From Sphingobium lignivorans (GTDB lineage: Bacteria > Pseudomonadota > Alphaproteobacteria > Sphingomonadales > Sphingomonadaceae): 64,000 nt of DNA. The notes beneath the pieces were generated by a model. That model ran no database searches. It worked only from the letters and a program-made list of their open reading frames with translations, and was not told the origin of the DNA. This document shows, one piece after another, positions 7,443-24,363 of the stretch (the first letter of the stretch is position 1; each line of letters opens with the position of its first letter). The position numbers were made by a program, and so were the translations under genes. The stretch covers positions 3,880,001 through 3,944,000 of the forward strand of contig NZ_JACHKA010000001.1 in assembly GCF_014203955.1 (NCBI RefSeq), written 5' to 3'.

Positions 7443-8915
7443 ATGGCCCATTTCCCCGACACCCCCGGCATGACCGGCGTGCTGCGCCCCCTCCGGATCG
7501 AGGGCGACATTCTGGATCTGGAAGTCGAAGGGGAAATCCCTGCGCAACTGAACGGGACCTTCCACCGGGTGCATCCCGATGCGCAATTCCCGCCCCGGTT
7601 CGAGGATGACCAGTTCTTCAACGGGGACGGCATGGTGAGCCTGTTCCGCTTTCACGACGGCAAGATCGATTTCCGCCAGCGTTATGCGCAGACGGACAAG
7701 TGGAAAATGGAGCGCAAGGCCGGCAAGTCGCTGTTCGGCGCCTATCGCAATCCGCTGACGGACGATGCGAGTGTCCAGGGCATGATCCGGGGCACCGCCA
7801 ACACCAATGTGATGGTCCATGCCGGCAAGCTCTACGCCATGAAGGAGGACAGCCCGTGCCTCATCATGGACCCGCTGACGCTGGAGACCGAAGGTTACAC
7901 CAATTTCGACGGCAAGCTGAAGAACCAGACCTTCTCGGCCCATGCCAAGATCGACCCCGTCACCGGCAACTTCTGCAATTTCGGCTATGCGGCGACAGGC
8001 CTGCTCACCACCGATTGCAGCTATTTCGAGATCGATCCCGCCGGCAACCTGCTGTTCGAGACCGAGTTCCAGGTGCCTTATTACTGCATGATGCACGATT
8101 ATGGCCTCACCGAGCATTATGCGATCTTCCACATCGTGCCGTGCACGTCGAACTGGGACCGGCTGAAGGCGGGTCTGCCGCATTTCGGCTTCGACACGAC
8201 GCTCCCCGTCTGGCTCGGCGTGGTGCCGCGCGGACCGGGCGTCACCAACAAGGACGTGCGCTGGTTCAAGGCGCCAAAGACCATCTTCGCGAGCCATGTG
8301 ATGAACGCCTTCGAGGAAGGGTCGAAGATCCACTTCGACACGCCGCAGGCAGAGAATAATGCCTTCCCCTTCTTCCCGGACATTCACGGCGCCCCGTTCG
8401 ATCCGGTGGCGGCGCGGCCCTATCTGCATCGCTGGACGGTCGATCTCGGATCGAACAGCCAGGATTTCGCCGAAGTACGCCAGCTCACCAACTTGATCGA
8501 CGAATTCCCCCGGCTGGACGAGCGCTATGTCGGCCAGCCCTATCGCCACGGCTGGGGTCTGGTCATGGACCCGGAGATGGAGATGGAATTCGCGCGCGGC
8601 CGGGCGTCCGGCTTCAAGATGAACCGCATCGGCCACTGGGATCACGCGACCGGCAAGGAGGACAGCTGGTGGTGCGGCCCGCAGTCGATCATCCAGGAGC
8701 CCTGCTTCGTGCCCCGCACGGCCGACTCCGCGGAAGGTGACGGCTACATCATCGCGCTCGTCGACAATCTCATCACCAATTACAGCGACCTGGTGGTGCT
8801 GGATGCCCTGAATCTCAAGGGCGGCCCGATCGGCCGCGCGAAACTGCCGATCCGCCTGCGCTCCGGCCTCCATGGTAACTGGGCGGACGCCAGCAAACTG
8901 CCCATCGCCGCCTGA
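7443..8915 (+). CDS. Carotenoid oxygenase family, lignostilbene-type dioxygenase
   Basis: Non-heme iron dioxygenase of the lignostilbene alpha,beta-dioxygenase group, which cleaves the central double bond of 4-hydroxystilbenes to two aldehydes such as vanillin. The 490-residue protein is full length. Phe59, Tyr101 and Lys134 fall exactly where I recall the substrate-binding residues of LsdA and NOV1. Candidate iron ligands are His167 (SAHAKI), His218 (MMHDYG), His285 (ASHVMN) and His477 (GLHGNW). There is no signal peptide, so it is cytoplasmic. The start follows AGGAGAG. Two operator-like inverted repeats precede it. Substrate assignment is family knowledge plus residue match. Confidence 0.88.
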
Positions 8916-15562: not shown

Positions 15563-17221
15563 TCAGTCGATCAGTACGGCGCCCGTGGACATCGGCTGCA
15601 CGTCCCGCTGATAGATGCCGAGATAGCCTTCCGCTTTCTTCGGCCCCTTCGCTTCGGCGGCGCGGGCAGCCAGTGTCGCGGCATCCACCAGCAGGTCGAT
15701 GCTGCGGGTAGCGACGTCGATGCGGATGCGATCGCCATCATGGACAAGGCCGATCGGCCCGCCCACCGCGGCCTCGGGCGCGACTTCGGCCACCGTCAGC
15801 CCCTTGAGGCACAGGCCGGAGAGTTGGCCATCCGTGATGAACGCGGTGTCCCGGGCGATGCCTGCGGCATCGATGGCGAACAGCACGATCGAGCCGCCGC
15901 CGCCCATGGCCGGGCCGCCCTTGAGACCCTGGCCGCGCAGGATGAGCACGTCGCCGGCGTTGATCTCCTTGTTCTCGATGGCATCGAGCGCGAGCGCCGT
16001 GCTGTCGAACACCCGGGCGGGCCCCTCGAAATATTCGGGACGCGCGCCATCGCGAATCCCGAGCTTCACCACCGCGCTCTCGGGCGCAAGCGACCCCTTC
16101 AGGATGGCGATGGACGGGCCTTCCGAAATCGGCCGGTCGAGCGGGCGGATGATCTCCGGCCCGATCACCTCGAAGGCCTCCAGATTTTCCGCCAATGTGC
16201 GGCCGGTGCAGGTCAGCGCGCCGGTATCGATGAGCGGCGCAAGCTGCTTGAGGATCGCTGCTGCGCCGCCAGCATCCTCGAATTCCTCGATGCGCACTTC
16301 CCCGTTGGGCCGGACGGCCGAGAGGACGGGCACCTTGCGGCCGACCTCGTCCCACATGGCAAAGATATCGACATCCACCTGCGCTTCCACCGCCACCGCC
16401 TGCAAATGCTTGATCGCATTGATCGAACCGGAGACGGCCAGAACCGTCGCGACGGCATTGCGAAAGGCGGCGGGTGTGAGGATCTGCCGGGGCGTGAGCC
16501 CTTCATTGACCATCTCGACGATGCGCGCGCCGGAGCGGCGAGCGGCATCCTGCATCTTCTCGCTGTTGGCCCGGACAGGCGCAGAGCCGGGCAGGGAAAG
16601 GCCCAGCGCTTCCACCACGCAATGCATGGTGTTCGCCGTGGCCATGCCCGCGCACACGCCGGGACCGCGCACGGCCTGCCGGATCATTTCCTGCTCGTCA
16701 TGCGGGAAAGGCTTGCCGAAGCGCGTCGCGATGGAGCCTGACCAGAGATCCTCCAGATCGACATGCTCGTTCCCGATCATGCCGGAAGCCTGATAGCCGC
16801 CGATGACGAGGATGGTGGGAATGTTGAGCCGGCCCGCCGCCATCATGTGGCCCGGCGGCGTCTTGTCGCAGCTGGTAAGGCAGACCATGCCATCGAGCAT
16901 GGCCGCCTCGACCTGCGCCTCGATGTCGTTGGTGACGAGATCCCGCGCCGAGAGAATGTAGCTGCCCTGCTTGCCCGCGCCCGTGATGAAATCCGAGGGT
17001 GCCGTCGTGCGCACCTCGAAAGGAACGCCGCCCGCAGCGCGTACGGCCTCCTTCACGATCTTCGCGATGCCATCCAGATGCGCATAGCAGACCGCCAGCT
17101 CGGAGGAGCTGTTCACCACCGCGATCTTGGGCTTGAGCATGTCCTCCTCGGACAGGCCGAGCGCATACCAATGGGAACGGCGCGAAGGCGAATCGGCGGC
17201 AAGACTGCGCAACTGGACCAT
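15563..17221 (-). CDS. IlvD/Edd family dehydratase (dihydroxy-acid or sugar-acid type)
   Basis: Iron-sulfur dehydratase of 552 residues. Three cysteines lie where cluster ligands are expected: C45 (AVCYAHLD), C118 (SCDKTPPGHMMAAGRL) and C190 (GVCAGMATANTM). The C-terminal GQLSGLCLKGLTVAEVAPEAA is also typical. The sequence departs from canonical IlvD in several motifs (SSSELAVC, MATANTM). The gene is also divergently paired with an aldo/keto reductase and not near ilv genes. An aldonate or related sugar-acid dehydratase is therefore as likely as branched-chain amino acid synthesis. Confidence 0.8.
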   Translation of the reverse strand: MVQLRSLAADSPSRRSHWYALGLSEEDMLKPKIAVVNSSSELAVCYAHLDGIAKIVKEAVRAAGGVPFEVRTTAPSDFITGAGKQGSYILSARDLVTNDIEAQVEAAMLDGMVCLTSCDKTPPGHMMAAGRLNIPTILVIGGYQASGMIGNEHVDLEDLWSGSIATRFGKPFPHDEQEMIRQAVRGPGVCAGMATANTMHCVVEALGLSLPGSAPVRANSEKMQDAARRSGARIVEMVNEGLTPRQILTPAAFRNAVATVLAVSGSINAIKHLQAVAVEAQVDVDIFAMWDEVGRKVPVLSAVRPNGEVRIEEFEDAGGAAAILKQLAPLIDTGALTCTGRTLAENLEAFEVIGPEIIRPLDRPISEGPSIAILKGSLAPESAVVKLGIRDGARPEYFEGPARVFDSTALALDAIENKEINAGDVLILRGQGLKGGPAMGGGGSIVLFAIDAAGIARDTAFITDGQLSGLCLKGLTVAEVAPEAAVGGPIGLVHDGDRIRIDVATRSIDLLVDAATLAARAAEAKGPKKAEGYLGIYQRDVQPMSTGAVLID

Positions 17222-17346: not shown

Positions 17347-18351
17347 ATGGACTATCGCTATCTCGGCCGAAGCGCCCTCAAGGTCTCGCCCTTGTGCCTG
17401 GGGACGATGATGTTCGGCGGCGCGACCGACGAACCGACATCGAGCAGGATCATCGACAAGGCCCGGGGACAGGGCGTCAACTTCATCGACACGGCCGACG
17501 GCTATAATGGCGGCGCCTCGGAAGAAGTCGTAGGCCGGGCGATCCGCAGCCATCGGCATCACTGGGTCCTCGCCACCAAGTTCGGCCATGTCTTCGGCAC
17601 GGGACCCAACGAGGGCGGGCAATCGCGCAAGTGGATCGTTCAGGATGTCGAGGCAAGCCTGCGGCGCCTCGGCACGGACTATATCGACCTGCTCTACTTC
17701 CATAAGGCGGATGTGAACGCGCCGTTCGAGGAAGGGCTGCGCGCGATCGAGGATCTCATCGCGGCGGGCAAGCTGCGTTACTACGGCATCTCCAATTTCA
17801 AGGGCTGGCGCATCGCCGAGATCTGCCGCGCGGCGGACGCGCTGAACATGGACCGGCCCGTCGCCAGCCAGCCGCTCTACAACATGGTCGACCGGCTGAG
17901 CGAAGTGGAGCAACTCCCCGCAGCCGGCCACTACGGCGTCGGCGTGGTGCCTTACAGCCCGCTCGCGCGGGGCGTGCTGAGCGGCAAATATGCCAAGGAC
18001 GCGCCGCCGCCCGCCGACTCCCGTGTCGCTCGTGGCGATCCGCGGATCAGGCAGACCGAATGGCGCCCCGAATCTCTCGACATCGCGCAGGCCGTGGCAG
18101 AGCGCGCGGCGGCGAAGGGAATCAGCACGATCAGCTTCGCGATCGCCTGGGTCCTGCGCAATCGCTTCGTCAGTTCCGCCATCGTCGGCCCCCGCACCGA
18201 AGCCCAGTGGGACAGCTATATCGACGCGCTCGCGGCGCAGATCGACGCGGATGACGAAGCCTTCGTCGATGCGCTCGTGCCGCCGGGCCATGCCTCGACA
18301 CCGGGCTATACGGACCCTGCCTATCCGATCGAGGGCCGGCAGCTGCGCTGA
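17347..18351 (+). CDS. Aldo/keto reductase
   Basis: NAD(P)H-dependent carbonyl reductase of 334 residues. The catalytic tetrad is complete: D48 and Y53 in FIDTADGYN, K78 in LATKFGH and H119 in LYFHKAD. The cofactor-binding region SSAIVGPRTEAQWDSY lies near the C-terminus. GAGGAGAG precedes the ATG. Divergence from the IlvD-type dehydratase suggests a shared sugar or sugar-acid route, which is inference from context. Confidence 0.9.
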   Translation: MDYRYLGRSALKVSPLCLGTMMFGGATDEPTSSRIIDKARGQGVNFIDTADGYNGGASEEVVGRAIRSHRHHWVLATKFGHVFGTGPNEGGQSRKWIVQDVEASLRRLGTDYIDLLYFHKADVNAPFEEGLRAIEDLIAAGKLRYYGISNFKGWRIAEICRAADALNMDRPVASQPLYNMVDRLSEVEQLPAAGHYGVGVVPYSPLARGVLSGKYAKDAPPPADSRVARGDPRIRQTEWRPESLDIAQAVAERAAAKGISTISFAIAWVLRNRFVSSAIVGPRTEAQWDSYIDALAAQIDADDEAFVDALVPPGHASTPGYTDPAYPIEGRQLR

Positions 18352-18466: not shown

Positions 18467-19042
18467 ATGGACATGCTCAAGAGACTTGCGACCGCTGCCG
18501 CCCTGTGTGCGCTATCCATGGCAAGTGCGGGCGCTGCCAACGCGCAGACGCTCGAACAGCGCGTGCAGCGCATGGAGGACGAGTCCGCCATCCGCCGCAT
18601 TCTCGTGCAATATGGCACGTATCTCGATGCCCGGGATTTCGCCGGATATGCAGGGCTCTTCGCGCCGGAGGGCGAGTGGATCGGCGGGCTGGGGCGCGCA
18701 AGGGGTCCAAAAGCGATCCAGGCCATGCTGGAGGAAAGACTGGGCAAGGCCGAGCCGGGCTGGATCAACAAGACCAGCTATCATCTCCTGTCCAACGCGC
18801 TGATCGAGATCGAAGGCGACAAGGCCCATGTCGTCTCCAAATATCTGTTCCTGACCAAGGCGCAGGATGCCGACCGGCCTGCCCCTCTGCTCGCCGGCCG
18901 CTATGAGGACGACCTCGTGCGCCTGAACGGGACGTGGAAGATCATGAAGCGCGTCACGAACGGCATCATTCCCTATCGCGACGGCAATGCGCCGCCCCCG
19001 CCTCCGCCGGCCGGCCTTGAAGACAAGGCCAGAACACGATGA
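18467..19042 (+). CDS. Exported NTF2-like (SnoaL-type) protein, copy 1
   Basis: A 191-residue protein with a signal peptide (MDMLKRLATAAALCALSMASAGAANA) and one NTF2-like alpha+beta cone domain. The opening helix EDESAIRRILVQYGTYLDARDFAGYAGLFAPEGEW is typical of SnoaL_4-type domains, and the closing strand is RLNGTWKIMKRV. A short Pro-rich tail follows. CGGAGGGAGAGG precedes the start. Its stop overlaps the start of copy 2 by ATGA. Members of this fold include cofactor-free lyases, isomerases and dehydratases; the reaction is not known here. Confidence 0.85.
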   Translation: MDMLKRLATAAALCALSMASAGAANAQTLEQRVQRMEDESAIRRILVQYGTYLDARDFAGYAGLFAPEGEWIGGLGRARGPKAIQAMLEERLGKAEPGWINKTSYHLLSNALIEIEGDKAHVVSKYLFLTKAQDADRPAPLLAGRYEDDLVRLNGTWKIMKRVTNGIIPYRDGNAPPPPPPAGLEDKARTR

Positions 19043-19596
19043 TCGTCCGCGTCTCGGCACTGGCGATCCTGCTCGCCACGCTCGGCATGCCGGCGGTCGC
19101 GCTGGCGGGCGATGCCCCCCGCACGGTGGAGGCGCGGTTGCAGCGGATAGAGGACGAACTCGCGATCCGGCGCGTGCTCGTCGACTATTCCGCAACGCAG
19201 GATGCGCGCGACTATGCCGGCTATGCCGCCCTGTTTGCGCGGGAAGGCGAGTGGGTGAACGGCAAGACAGTCCACAAGGGCCGCGAAGCGATCCACAAGA
19301 TGCTGATCGACCTCTATGGCGCCCCGCCACCCGGCTACGTGAACACCGAAAGCTATCACATCTCCTCCAATCCGCAGATCGACATCGAGGGGGACCGGGC
19401 GCGCGCCCGCTCCCGCCACCTGCTCGTCCTGCGCGGGCCGGATGGTGCACCAACGCCAGCACTGGCCGGGATCTATGAAGACGAGTTCATCCGCGAGGAC
19501 GGGGCATGGAAGATCCTGCGCCGCGTCGACACCCCCGTCATGCCGACGCCCGCCGAATGGATGGAATTCATCCGCAAGCGTCGACCGGCACAATGA
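19039..19596 (+). CDS. Exported NTF2-like (SnoaL-type) protein, copy 2
   Basis: A 185-residue paralogue of the preceding gene: signal peptide to about residue 23 (ALAGDA), then IEDELAIRRVLVDYSATQDARDYAGYAALFAREGEW, YHISSNPQIDIEGDRARARS, and YEDEFIREDGAWKILRRVD. The ATG overlaps the previous stop codon, and its own stop overlaps the next start, so the three are translationally coupled and probably work in fixed proportions or as a heteromer. Confidence 0.85.
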   Translation: MIVRVSALAILLATLGMPAVALAGDAPRTVEARLQRIEDELAIRRVLVDYSATQDARDYAGYAALFAREGEWVNGKTVHKGREAIHKMLIDLYGAPPPGYVNTESYHISSNPQIDIEGDRARARSRHLLVLRGPDGAPTPALAGIYEDEFIREDGAWKILRRVDTPVMPTPAEWMEFIRKRRPAQ

Positions 19597-20090
19597 GGGC
19601 GCTGCGCCTTCTTCTCGCCGCGATGCTGCTGATCGGCAGCGCGCTGCCAGCCGCGGCGCAACGCGACGAGACCGCCGATCGCGCTGCCATCCACGCCCTG
19701 CTCGTCGCTTATGGCCGCACGCTCGATGCCCGGGATTTCGAGGGGTTCGGCAAGCTGTTCGGCAAGGCTGGCGTCTATGTCGCCGGGAACGGCCGACAAG
19801 CCACCGGGCCCGAAGCCGCCGGGATGATGCGCAAGATCTTTGCCGCCAATGCGATGGGATTTCGGGAGCCGGCCTTTCACCTCTTCTTCAATGAAGTGGT
19901 GGTGTTTCAGGGGCCTGACCATGCCCGCGCCACATCCATGTCGCTCTACATGGTGCCCGACGACGCGGGCAGGCCCTCGGCCGCTCTCGCCGCGCGCTAC
20001 GAAGACGAACTGGCGCGTGAGGACGGGCAATGGGTTTTCGCGCGACGCGTCGTCCAGGGCCTCCAGACCGGCACGGCAGCGCCGAATTAG
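19593..20090 (+). CDS. Exported NTF2-like (SnoaL-type) protein, copy 3
   Basis: A 165-residue third paralogue with signal peptide MRALRLLLAAMLLIGSALPAAA. The domain runs from AAIHALLVAYGRTLDARDFEGFGKLF through FHLFFNEVVVFQGPDHARA to EDELAREDGQWVFARRV. The ATG at 19593 overlaps the stop of copy 2, which decides the start over an earlier in-frame ATG. It is the most diverged of the three (Phe-rich mid-section), which hints at a different ligand or an accessory role. Confidence 0.82.
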   Translation: MRALRLLLAAMLLIGSALPAAAQRDETADRAAIHALLVAYGRTLDARDFEGFGKLFGKAGVYVAGNGRQATGPEAAGMMRKIFAANAMGFREPAFHLFFNEVVVFQGPDHARATSMSLYMVPDDAGRPSAALAARYEDELAREDGQWVFARRVVQGLQTGTAAPN

Positions 20091-20568: not shown

Positions 20569-23028
20569 ATGGTCCACCGCTTCCTTCTCACCGCCAGTAC
20601 GCTTGCCACGGCGCTCCTGGCCGGCACCGCTGCCCTGGCGCAGGACTCCACGCCACCTCAGGACGATCCGACGGTACCACAGGCCGAGAGCCGCTCCGGC
20701 GAGATCGTCGTCACCGCGCGGCGGCGCAGCGAGAACGTGCAGGATGTTCCCATCGCCATCTCGGTGCTGGCAGGCGAGGCCCTCGATGCCCAGGGGGCCT
20801 ACAATATCAACCGCCTCACCCAGTTGCAGCCCACCTTGCAGTTCTTCTCCACCAATCCGCGCAACACCTTCATCAACATTCGCGGCATCGGCGCGCCATT
20901 CGGCCTCACGAACGACGGTTTCGAGCAGGGCGTCGGCATCTACATCGACCAGGTCTATTACAACCGCATCGCCGCGGCGACGCTGGACTTTGTCGACGTC
21001 GAGCAGATCGAGGTGCTGCGCGGCCCGCAAGGCACGCTCTACGGAAAGAACACGACCGCCGGCGCCATCAACATCACAACGCGCCCGCCCAGCTTCGATT
21101 TCGAAGGCAAGGCCGAGATCTCCGTAGGCAATCTCGGCTTCAAGCAAGCCAAGGCTTCGGTGTCCGGCCCGTTCAGCGATACGCTGGCGGCGCGCCTCAG
21201 CATCTCGAGCACGGATCGCCGGGGCACGATCTACAATGTGACGACCGACACATGGATCAACTCGCAGGATAATATCGGCATCCGGGGCGCGCTGCTGTGG
21301 AAACCGGGCGCGGACGTGCGCCTCACCCTGTCGGGCGACTGGAATCTTCAGGATCCGATCTGCTGCGGCCAGATCTATGCCCGTGTCGGCACGACACAGC
21401 GCGCGCTCAATCGGCAATATACCGCCCTGACCGCCCTGTTCCCGGGCTATCAGGTGCCGAGCACCAACCCCTTCGACCGCCTGACCGATCTCGACGCCGA
21501 TCTTTCGGCGCGCAACGAGCATGGCGGCCTGTCGGCCCGGTTGGAATGGGATCTCGGACCCGGCACGCTGACGTCGGTCACCGCCTGGCGCTACTGGGAC
21601 TGGGGGCCGAAGAATGACCGCGATTTCACGGGTCTCCCCGTCTATACGAAGGTCAACAACCCGACCAAGCAGAACCAGTACACGCAGGAACTGCGTTATG
21701 CCTACGCGGCGGACAAGCTGGACTTCGTGGTCGGCGCCTTCGCATTTTATCAGGAAATCCGCACCAGCGGCATCCAGGAGACCGGACCCGCGGCGAGTGC
21801 ATGGCTGCTCGCACCGAGCAATGCCCTGTCGCGCAATCCGGCAGTGCTCAACGGCATCGTCGCGGAGAATGACATTCGCCTCGACAATCTCAGCCTCGCG
21901 ACATTCGGCAAGGTCAACTGGAAGGTCACGGACCGCCTGACCATTTCTCCCGGTGTGCGCGTGAATTACGACCGGAAGGATGGCGTCTATGATTCGGTCG
22001 TGACCGGTACCGCGTCCGACGGCACGCGCCAGCTCATCACCAACGATACGACGCATCCTTATTACAACGATCCGTGGACGGCGGCGCAGCGCGGAACGCA
22101 GGCTTCGCAATTCTTCGAGCCGCGCTTCAGCGACTGGAACCTCTCCTACGACCTCAACCTGTCATATGAGCTGGCGCACGACGTGATGGCCTATGCCACC
22201 TATGCGCGATCGTTCAAGACGGGCGGCATCAACCTCAACGGCGTGCCGAGCCGGGGCGATGGCACGCCGGCGCTCGAGGTCGCCCAGATCAAGCCCGAGA
22301 AAGTCGATCATTTCGAGGCGGGCATCAAGACGCAGTTCTGGAACCGTCGCGGCACTTTCAACATCACTGGCTTCTGGACGGAGATCAAGGACTTCCAGGC
22401 CAGCGTCATCAGCAATGTGAGCGGCAGCAATGTGCTGCGCGGCTATCTTGCCAATGCCGAGAAGGTCCGCGTGCGCGGCATCGAGGCGGACTTCTCGGTC
22501 CGCCCGTCCGATCGCCTCAACGCCTATCTGAGCGGGGCCTTCACCGATCACGAGTTCAGGAAGTTCGTCGATGCGCCCTGCCCGCCCGAGCTGGCGGGCG
22601 GCGCGACCGGTACGCCGCCCGGACCGCCCGCAACCCCGGGCGCCAACAGCCCCGCCAATTGCGATGTCTCTGGGCAGTGGCTGCCCGGCATCTCCAAATG
22701 GGCATTCTCCTGGGGCGCCGAATACAACATCCCCGCCACTGTCCTCGGCCGCCAAGGCCAGGCCTATCTTGGCTATGACGCGAGCTATCGCTCCAAATTC
22801 TCGTCCAACGCCTCCCGGTCGATCTACACGGATATCGACGGCTATTCGGTGCACAATTTCCGCCTCGGATTCCGCACGGACGGCTTCGATCTCTTCGGCT
22901 GGGTGCGCAATGCATTCGACGAGGACTACTTTGAATCGCTGGCGGTCACGCCCGGCAACACCGGCCTGATCTCCGCGCAGCTTGCCGACCCGCGCACCTG
23001 GGGCGGCACGATACGCTTCTCGTTCTGA
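20569..23028 (+). CDS. TonB-dependent outer-membrane receptor
   Basis: An 819-residue receptor with signal peptide (MVHRFLLTASTLATALLAGTAALAQ), a TonB-box-like GEIVVTARRR at 44-53, and a plug domain (VPIAISVLAGEAL ... INIRGIG ... VEQIEVLRGPQGTLYGKNTTAGAINI). A 22-strand-type barrel ends in the terminal aromatic FSF. AGGGGA precedes the ATG at 20569. The sphingomonad-type plug does not reveal the ligand. Context offers two readings: import for the LysR/5-oxoprolinase block downstream, or for the NTF2-like block upstream. Confidence 0.92.
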   Translation: MVHRFLLTASTLATALLAGTAALAQDSTPPQDDPTVPQAESRSGEIVVTARRRSENVQDVPIAISVLAGEALDAQGAYNINRLTQLQPTLQFFSTNPRNTFINIRGIGAPFGLTNDGFEQGVGIYIDQVYYNRIAAATLDFVDVEQIEVLRGPQGTLYGKNTTAGAINITTRPPSFDFEGKAEISVGNLGFKQAKASVSGPFSDTLAARLSISSTDRRGTIYNVTTDTWINSQDNIGIRGALLWKPGADVRLTLSGDWNLQDPICCGQIYARVGTTQRALNRQYTALTALFPGYQVPSTNPFDRLTDLDADLSARNEHGGLSARLEWDLGPGTLTSVTAWRYWDWGPKNDRDFTGLPVYTKVNNPTKQNQYTQELRYAYAADKLDFVVGAFAFYQEIRTSGIQETGPAASAWLLAPSNALSRNPAVLNGIVAENDIRLDNLSLATFGKVNWKVTDRLTISPGVRVNYDRKDGVYDSVVTGTASDGTRQLITNDTTHPYYNDPWTAAQRGTQASQFFEPRFSDWNLSYDLNLSYELAHDVMAYATYARSFKTGGINLNGVPSRGDGTPALEVAQIKPEKVDHFEAGIKTQFWNRRGTFNITGFWTEIKDFQASVISNVSGSNVLRGYLANAEKVRVRGIEADFSVRPSDRLNAYLSGAFTDHEFRKFVDAPCPPELAGGATGTPPGPPATPGANSPANCDVSGQWLPGISKWAFSWGAEYNIPATVLGRQGQAYLGYDASYRSKFSSNASRSIYTDIDGYSVHNFRLGFRTDGFDLFGWVRNAFDEDYFESLAVTPGNTGLISAQLADPRTWGGTIRFSF

Positions 23029-23445: not shown

Positions 23446-24363
23446 ATGCGACGACAGGCTGGGGACTTCACCCTGCGTCAGCTCGACATCTTCGTGTCCG
23501 TCGCACGATCGGGCAGCTTTGCGCTCGCCGCCGACCAGCTCGGCATTTCCCAACCCGCCGTCAGCGATCATATGAGCACGCTCGAAAGGCATCTGGGCTA
23601 CAAGCTGTTCGACCGGCGGCGCGGGACCACGCCGGTCCTGACCCGCGAGGGCTTCGAGATGCTGCAGCGGGCCGAAACATTGCTCTCCGCCAGCCAGCCC
23701 CTGCGCGGCAAGGCCGCGCCCCGCGACGCCGAGGAAAAGACGACGATCCGCCTCTCCCTCGGCGATCGCTCCCGTGATCTCTTTCTCCGGTCCCTGATGG
23801 CCCGCATTTATACGGAGCTCCCGAACATCGAGGTCCAGATCGTCCCCGCCGTGGCGCCGGGGCAGATCGCCGCGGCGCTGGAGAAACGGGACATCGACCT
23901 GCTTCTGTACACGATCGGCCGCCCGCCGCTGCGCCTGCCAAACATCCATGTGCTGGGCGACGTGCCCATCCTGCTGGTCGGCGCGCCCGAGACGCTCCAT
24001 CTGCTGGAGACGGGGAGGCTGGCCGTGGAGGATCTTCAGTTCATCCTCCCCGATTTCGGCGGCGCGGCCGAACACTGGCTGGAGCGGCAACTCAATGCCG
24101 CCGGCATCCGCCCCCGCCGCGCGGTGCGCTATCTGGATTTTCCGGACGTCATCCAGACCATCGTCGAGGAGGGCCTGGGCGTCTCGATCCTCACGGAAGA
24201 ACAGGTCGCGCCCGCCCTCGCGGAAGGTCGGCTTGTGCGCTTTGGCCCCGAGCTGGAGCCGATGCGGCGGATCATTGCACGGTCGCCGCGTGCGCCACGC
24301 GCGGTCGATGCGCTGGAACAGCTTCTGATTACCGAGATCAGTCGCCAGCTGCGCCACCGCTGA
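23446..24363 (+). CDS. LysR family transcriptional regulator
   Basis: A 305-residue LTTR. The N-terminal winged helix ([40 protein letters not shown]) covers residues 8-67, and the two-lobed effector domain runs from about 95 ([16 protein letters not shown]) to the end. It is transcribed in the same direction as the 5-oxoprolinase that starts 77 bp later, an arrangement that suggests local control of that block. The effector may be 5-oxoproline or its precursor, which is inference. Confidence 0.92.

Follow-up and report, generated by a model that had tools for sequence, protein, structure and literature searches.

The window examined here is a 64,000-nucleotide stretch of Sphingobium lignivorans DNA (C1:3880001-3944000 of a single-contig 4.21 Mb genome). 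It raises the question of what three related exported proteins, encoded by three overlapping genes in a row (A, B and C), do together, and on which compound they act. A sequence-only reading of the locus described the genes as translationally coupled paralogues and proposed that they form a mixed periplasmic assembly or catalyse successive reactions, with a possible tie to lignin-dimer breakdown. Our analysis confirmed the observation and partly supports the interpretation. The genes concerned, both inside the window and elsewhere in the same genome, are collected in Table 1.

Table 1. Features of the row, its surroundings and the F-type proteins of the same genome (positions are those of the window unless a locus is named)
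Feature	Position	Strand	Remarks
Lignostilbene dioxygenase LSD2	7443-8915	+	counterpart of SYK-6 LSD2 (SLG_36640)
IlvD/Edd-family dehydratase	15563-17221	-	below the curated ilvD cut-off
Aldo/keto reductase	17347-18351	+	upstream of A
A, exported SnoaL_4 protein, 191 aa	18467-19042	+	Asp54 at 18626-18628, His106 at 18782-18784
B, exported SnoaL_4 protein, 185 aa	19039-19596	+	Asp55 at 19201-19203, His107 at 19357-19359
C, exported SnoaL_4 protein, 165 aa	19593-20090	+	Asp45 at 19725-19727, His96 at 19878-19880
Small DUF2292 protein, 54 residues	20283-20447	+	between row and receptor
TonB-dependent receptor	20569-23028	+	Pfam match; frame open from 20518
LysR-type regulator	23446-24363	+	profile match
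F-type proteins, L009	L009:10213-12258, L009:13819-15819		
F-type proteins, L014	L014:10199-12319, L014:16359-18428		
F-type proteins, L017	L017:11468-13501, L017:13491-15401, L017:16236-18380		
F-type protein, L019	L019:11709-13688		

Three coupled genes and their Asp/His pair

Each of the three proteins contains one SnoaL_4 domain (PF13577), with scores of 92.4 bits for A, 95.2 for B and 79.7 for C against a cut-off of 24. In each, the domain is preceded by a hydrophobic N-terminus and an A-x-A-like site (here and below, export signals were called with our own hydropathy script and no signal-peptide predictor). Both junctions, A/B and B/C, are 4-base ATGA overlaps. The longest open frame of C begins at 19506, and the start inside the ATGA overlap directly precedes the signal-peptide-like stretch. 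A and B are 47% identical over their domains and 40% over their full length, and C is 31–33% identical to either. The description of three exported NTF2-like paralogues joined by ATGA therefore stands in all its parts: domains, signal-like N-termini and both overlaps.

ATGA coupling alone proves little, because 4-base overlaps are common in this genome: our rough gene caller found them in 35 of 213 same-strand neighbours in the stretches that were fetched. Inside rows of this kind, they occur at 13 of 16 junctions (six row loci plus the X-B pair of genome G290; Fisher p about 1e-7), a count that is biased since the gene caller applied to relatives favours ATGA starts.

Membership in the SnoaL_4/NTF2-like group was found by profile for all three proteins, and the fold was modelled for B only. 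The AlphaFold model of B (pLDDT 89.9, pTM 0.81) has a cone-shaped alpha+beta fold that matches LinA (Z 17.6), LdpA complexes (Z 15.9–16.4) and scytalone dehydratase (1idp, Z 15.2). The suggestion that the trio belongs to the fold of lignin-dimer lyases is thus upheld at the level of the LdpA superfamily. The top fold matches are proteins of unknown function (2rfr first, Z 18.7), and designed vitamin-D3 and apixaban binders are also among the matches; a shared fold shows no function.

Conserved residues come closer to the question of activity. The Asp of a 'DARD' motif and the His of a 'SYH/AFH' motif each fall in a single column of the MAFFT alignment, and both residues are found in A, B and C; pockets devoid of polar catalytic residues, which the sequence-only reading had named as evidence against itself, are therefore improbable. 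Across the W-type proteins (any slot of the row), Asp is present in 19/19 and His in 18/19, the exception being Sx_4 of Sphingobium xanthum. This count omits L050, L051, L055_a, L055_b, L056_s, L057 and L058 and the domains of the L052, L056 and L065 fusions; among these omitted rows, L050, L055_a, L055_b and fL065.2 have no His, and the others keep both residues. The alignment does not extend to G397, G290, G066, L068 and L103-L105. Asp55 and Trp157 of B do not vary across an alignment of 48 rows, at least 90% of which retain His107.

Two known enzymes can be compared at this pair. LinA has an Asp/His dyad (H73/D25) and is a homotrimer (PMC3507683); the modelled fold of B resembles that of LinA, and the trio's Asp and His columns may be the counterpart of this dyad. 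For LdpA, MAFFT places the His of the genome's own LdpA in the same column as His106, His107 and His96 of the trio, and that residue sits in the motif carrying His97 of NaLdpA, which is replaced by Gln in structure 8abu (the number 97 is taken from the structure title and letters). In a pairwise phmmer alignment, however, NaLdpA position 97 falls two residues off His107 of B. The trio's His may well correspond to NaLdpA His97, but the two alignments disagree on it.

The binders among the fold matches suggest another role: A, B and C would bind or carry a hydrophobic compound after its import and would not be enzymes. NTF2 pockets can serve as binders, as those designs show, and Sx_4 has lost its His. 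Against this counts the Asp/His pair in 18 of the 19 W-type proteins, and we regard a carrier role as quite improbable.

The row and its neighbours in other genomes

Six row loci were compared: the window, Sphingobium sp. SYK-6, S. xanthum NL9, the MAGs G034 (L054) and G407 (L064/L098), and G397 (L097). Two of these share one species, as SYK-6 (G206, NC_015976.1) carries the same species label as the window's genome; it is also the closest named relative found, with a B protein 96% identical to that of the window. In the domain tree (85 rows, 147 columns, quick search; built after excluding L055_a, L058 and most of the single proteins from the window's own genome), the row proteins form four clades, with SH-aLRT support of 96 for A, 81 for X, 97 for B and 96 for C. 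Core orthologues are 61–80% identical (B is 69–79% identical to five orthologues), and different types are 26–57% identical. The first slot of the row is occupied by A or X, and S. xanthum carries both.

The number of copies varies: three in the window, in G034 and in G407, two in G397 (X + C, type B missing), seven in S. xanthum, and in SYK-6 A, B and a frameshifted C. The S. xanthum row also holds a fourth type, Sx_4, and two extra C-like copies. The last two of its seven copies (L049:12443-13329) have no signal peptide, and there is an in-frame stop shortly upstream of the first of them. A strict tandem triplication, as first proposed, does not describe rows of two, three or seven copies. 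What a search of other genomes did bear out is the recurrence of the row types with a TonB-dependent receptor at all six loci.

That receptor lies downstream of the row in 6/6 loci by Pfam (the L054 copy is cut by the contig end), and the three receptors compared are 57–68% identical to the window's. A LysR gene is near the row in 5/6 loci, with the sixth contig ending before that spot. The aldo/keto reductase is also found in 5/6 (absent from 20 kb of G397) and the IlvD/Edd dehydratase in 4/6 (none lies within 19 kb of S. xanthum sequence, and L054 is a short contig). A DUF2292 protein occupies the same spot in L054 and L097.

Beyond these loci, arrangements are looser. A 19-kb stretch of G290 carries C, A and an X-B pair, accompanied by a receptor, two PQQ alcohol dehydrogenases and a further SnoaL series. 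A Steroidobacteraceae MAG has a C-like gene, a PQQ dehydrogenase, B and three S-type genes. Single copies with unrelated neighbours, the other pattern named in advance as evidence against the set, do occur: G063, G136 and G356 have lone W-type genes among unrelated neighbours, and in a Gammaproteobacteria MAG a B gene is the sole SnoaL match on 14 kb. They do not characterise the set overall. Neither this pattern nor a lack of polar residues holds for the whole set, because the row recurs with its receptor, each of the three proteins has the Asp/His pair, and a fusion of A and B exists.

Of the 396 Sphingomonadales genomes searched, 10 have a match to B at E <= 1e-30 (W-type, any slot) and 6 a match to C at E <= 1e-25. 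Single-chain proteins of a second kind, the F-type, were found at E <= 1e-40 in 8. All 8 F-type genomes are among the 10 W-type genomes (hypergeometric p 3e-15, which ignores kinship); the W-type and F-type counts include the window's own genome and SYK-6. A plasmid search with B gave 13 records, every one below 60% identity.

A further family was seen beside SnoaL genes. These proteins have an N-terminal 'CD..CL' motif ('CDRACL') and are encoded at L010:4803-7603, L101:16201-18000, L102:820-2660 and L060:12309-13190; they are 29–61% identical to the first row, and most have a signal-like start by their letters. The protein of L060 and the first of L102 have no Pfam match, and L010:5807-7603 has just weak beta-propeller matches in its second half. 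PQQ alcohol dehydrogenases adjoin them too in L010 and L101.

Within the species, the three genes may differ in how closely they are kept. A single additional G within a G run frameshifts C in SYK-6 (L059:10555-10881), and the SYK-6 DNA past the frameshift still matches the window's C, so C may be dispensable in SYK-6 or the SYK-6 record may contain an error. Between the two strains, A shows 5 synonymous and 0 non-synonymous changes (dN/dS 0). The ratio reaches 0.34 in B and 0.30 in C, compared with 0.03 in the receptor and 0.06 in the LysR gene; all these values are rough because changes are few. On these figures, B and C may be less constrained than A and the receptor.

Some neighbours could also suit a substrate unrelated to lignin. 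The dehydratase belongs to a sugar-acid/dihydroxy-acid family, and the best solved relatives of the aldo/keto reductase include a DON 3-epimerase chain and DepB. Relatives of the trio occur with PQQ alcohol dehydrogenases in G290 and the Steroidobacteraceae MAG. The substrate might accordingly be something else (e.g., sugar-like or terpenoid), with the lignin background of the organism a coincidence. Sugar-like chemistry would suit the reductase and dehydratase too; the co-occurrence of the row with dioxygenase-rich genomes (see below) counts against it, and we judge it somewhat unlikely.

Dioxygenases, LdpA and the proposed lignin link

The sequence-only reading had connected the trio to the lignostilbene-type dioxygenase of the window, some 10 kb away, which a lyase of this fold could feed. 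The dioxygenase was identified from the eight of SYK-6 (G206), which in chromosome order match eight published SLG tags, SLG_36640 being LSD2; the names LSD1-8 in the window's genome follow chromosome order and published SLG numbers, not a gene table. The window's LSD2 is 70% identical to LSD1 of the same genome. In a 33-row dioxygenase tree, its only partners are a gene of G397 and a gene of G407, neither of which is near the row: both lie far away, on other contigs. S. xanthum, which carries the row, has no LSD2 orthologue among its five dioxygenases. We therefore dropped the 10-kb link as evidence. In G407, an LSD1-like dioxygenase adjoins the row's receptor.

At the level of whole genomes, the association is present. 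Among 42 hand-picked genomes, lignostilbene dioxygenases (PF03055) occur in 11/11 with W-type genes (3–10 each) vs 13/31 without (at most 4 each; Fisher p 8e-4, which ignores kinship), with a split gene of G001 counted once. The association between genomes thus holds in this sample and the gene-level link to LSD2 fails, making the lignin link of the trio circumstantial.

A second line of evidence concerns LdpA itself. The LdpA/PcfL gamma-formaldehyde lyases (SLG_12650, Saro_2805, Saro_0796) share with the trio the SnoaL_4 domain, the fold, the Asp/His columns (MAFFT) and the bacterial group. The genome has its own LdpA at C1:1291136, which matches SpLdpA over its full length (E 3e-170); another dioxygenase lies about 6 kb away. 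Unlike the trio, this LdpA is a single longer protein without a signal peptide, and it belongs to another superclade: in the 147-column quick search, the superclade that holds the trio (48 rows, support 100) does not include it.

These observations bear on whether the row encodes a lignin-dimer lyase that makes stilbenes for lignostilbene dioxygenases. The LdpA fold, the His97 column kept by MAFFT, the dioxygenases in all 11 chosen W-type genomes and the LSD1-like gene beside the G407 receptor are what such a lyase would lead one to expect. However, LSD2 orthologues are unlinked to the row or missing, LdpA is already encoded by a separate gene without a signal peptide, and the LdpA-LSD route, in the part of the 2026 review drawn on here (PMC12997858), includes neither an aldo/keto reductase nor an IlvD/Edd enzyme. 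A stilbene-forming lyase is an unlikely reading of the row.

We give about even chances to a broader proposal, in which A, B and C are exported Asp/His SnoaL enzymes acting on a compound imported by the receptor. It builds on direct observations: the domains, the export-signal-like N-termini, the Asp/His columns, the overlaps, the recurring types and the neighbouring receptor. The three would be different but related enzymes of the cofactor-free SnoaL/NTF2 kind, co-translated from one message and exported, probably to act in the periplasm on a compound brought in by the TonB-dependent receptor. In the cone-shaped pocket, the Asp/His pair could abstract a proton and drive out a leaving group (dehydration, elimination or retro-aldol type chemistry). 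The substrate would most likely be aromatic, and the product would then move to the cytoplasm. Keeping several types might divide the task among them, whether within mixed trimers or through enzymes that handle different isomers of the substrate in parallel.

Several results count against the exported-enzyme proposal. LSD2 is not a conserved neighbour, and the trio lies outside the LdpA clade, in a quick tree of 147 columns. His is missing in Sx_4, L050, L055_a, L055_b and fL065.2, and the phmmer alignment is two residues off at position 97. Finally, two extra S. xanthum copies have no signal, C is frameshifted in SYK-6, and the dN/dS values of B and C are raised relative to that of A.

Possible mixed assembly or parallel enzymes

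Natural fusions bear on whether the three proteins work in one complex. G066 encodes an exported fusion of A and B, L065 encodes an A-B-like fusion without a signal, and L052 and L056 encode three-domain SnoaL fusions without a signal peptide. Aldo/keto reductases about 40% identical to the window's adjoin such fused three-domain forms. The fusions at L052:6213-15594 and L056:3482-8018 adjoin, besides this reductase, an FMO-like (Baeyer-Villiger-like) monooxygenase, and the neighbours of the L052 fusion also include a CMD-family gene, an SDR and a TonB-dependent receptor.

These fusions argue for a mixed assembly of A, B and C, and we consider it a plausible candidate. The opposing evidence is that the model of the L052 fusion (alignment of 10 rows, pTM 0.53, pLDDT 69.8) was too weak to show packing, that copy number varies and that Asp and His are kept in all three window proteins.

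In another reading, A, B and C each form their own oligomer and serve as parallel isoenzymes for different stereoisomers or substrates. Copy numbers of 2, 3 and 7 suit this arrangement, as does the fact that a type can be missing (G397 has X + C only). Since types A, X, B and C all retain the Asp/His pair, no one of them looks purely structural. Parallel isoenzymes are common among the lignin-dimer enzymes of the genus; stereoselective sets on record include LigD/LigL, LdpB/LdpC and PhcF/PhcG (PMC12997858). The A-B fusions (G066, L065) and the three-domain fusions suggest contact between types and speak against separate oligomers. Parallel isoenzymes are a serious possibility, if a somewhat doubtful one.

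The F-type proteins provide a comparison within the same genome, which has 49 SnoaL_4 matches above the cut-off. Eight of its proteins (F1-F8) are single chains with three SnoaL_4 domains, and split ones exist besides. A signal-like N-terminus was found in 7/8 as called, with that of F5 just upstream in frame, and some of the genes adjoin TonB-dependent receptors. F-type proteins and the trio thus share three SnoaL_4 domains or units, export-signal-like N-termini and, in part, receptor neighbours, but they fall in different superclades. Within the F-type, domains 1, 2 and 3 form separate clades (SH-aLRT 90, 100 and 99), which makes this triplication old. Domain 1 has lost both Asp and His in 9/9, unlike the trio; domain 2 keeps Asp in 9/9 and His in 4/9, and domain 3 keeps both in 10/10 (the split F10 and F9 are included in these counts). 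The pattern resembles a split between structural and catalytic domains. Because the F-type and trio superclades differ, a design with three units appears to have evolved on at least two occasions.

A precedent for a mixed enzyme from overlapping related genes is BaeAB, whose two subunits are cytoplasmic glutathione transferases. This heterodimeric beta-etherase acts on a lignin dimer, is encoded by overlapping related sphingomonad genes and has been shown to form a mixed complex (PMC6369299), whereas a mixed assembly of the trio is a hypothesis. LinA differs in another way, being a trimer of one protein, where here a single row encodes three exported paralogues.

In the boldest reading, the row would encode a mixed three-subunit periplasmic lyase: a LinA-like trimer in which A (or X), B and C each contribute a different active site. 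Its three-unit design would have been reached more than once, as coupled genes (the W and S sets) and as single chains (the F-type and the L052/L056 fusions). It would belong to a periplasmic route for aromatic oligomers that includes receptors and PQQ alcohol dehydrogenases, a route of which our literature searches gave no description. We regard this reading as unlikely.

In the open-licence literature, we found no description of exported coupled SnoaL sets and no mention of SLG_3672-3676, whereas SLG_3664 is mentioned in two papers. The row hints at an undescribed enzyme set between the cell's membranes. SYK-6 is a model for lignin-dimer catabolism. A 2026 review counts 62 NTF2-superfamily homologues in SYK-6 and gives their substrate specificity as unknown (PMC12997858). 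In a genome of that species, part of the set is now sorted into groups that are exported, linked to receptors and marked by a conserved Asp/His pair, and this sorting gives a testable case that some lignin-dimer-type chemistry is periplasmic. A mixed assembly, if confirmed, would give SnoaL enzymes a new type of quaternary structure.
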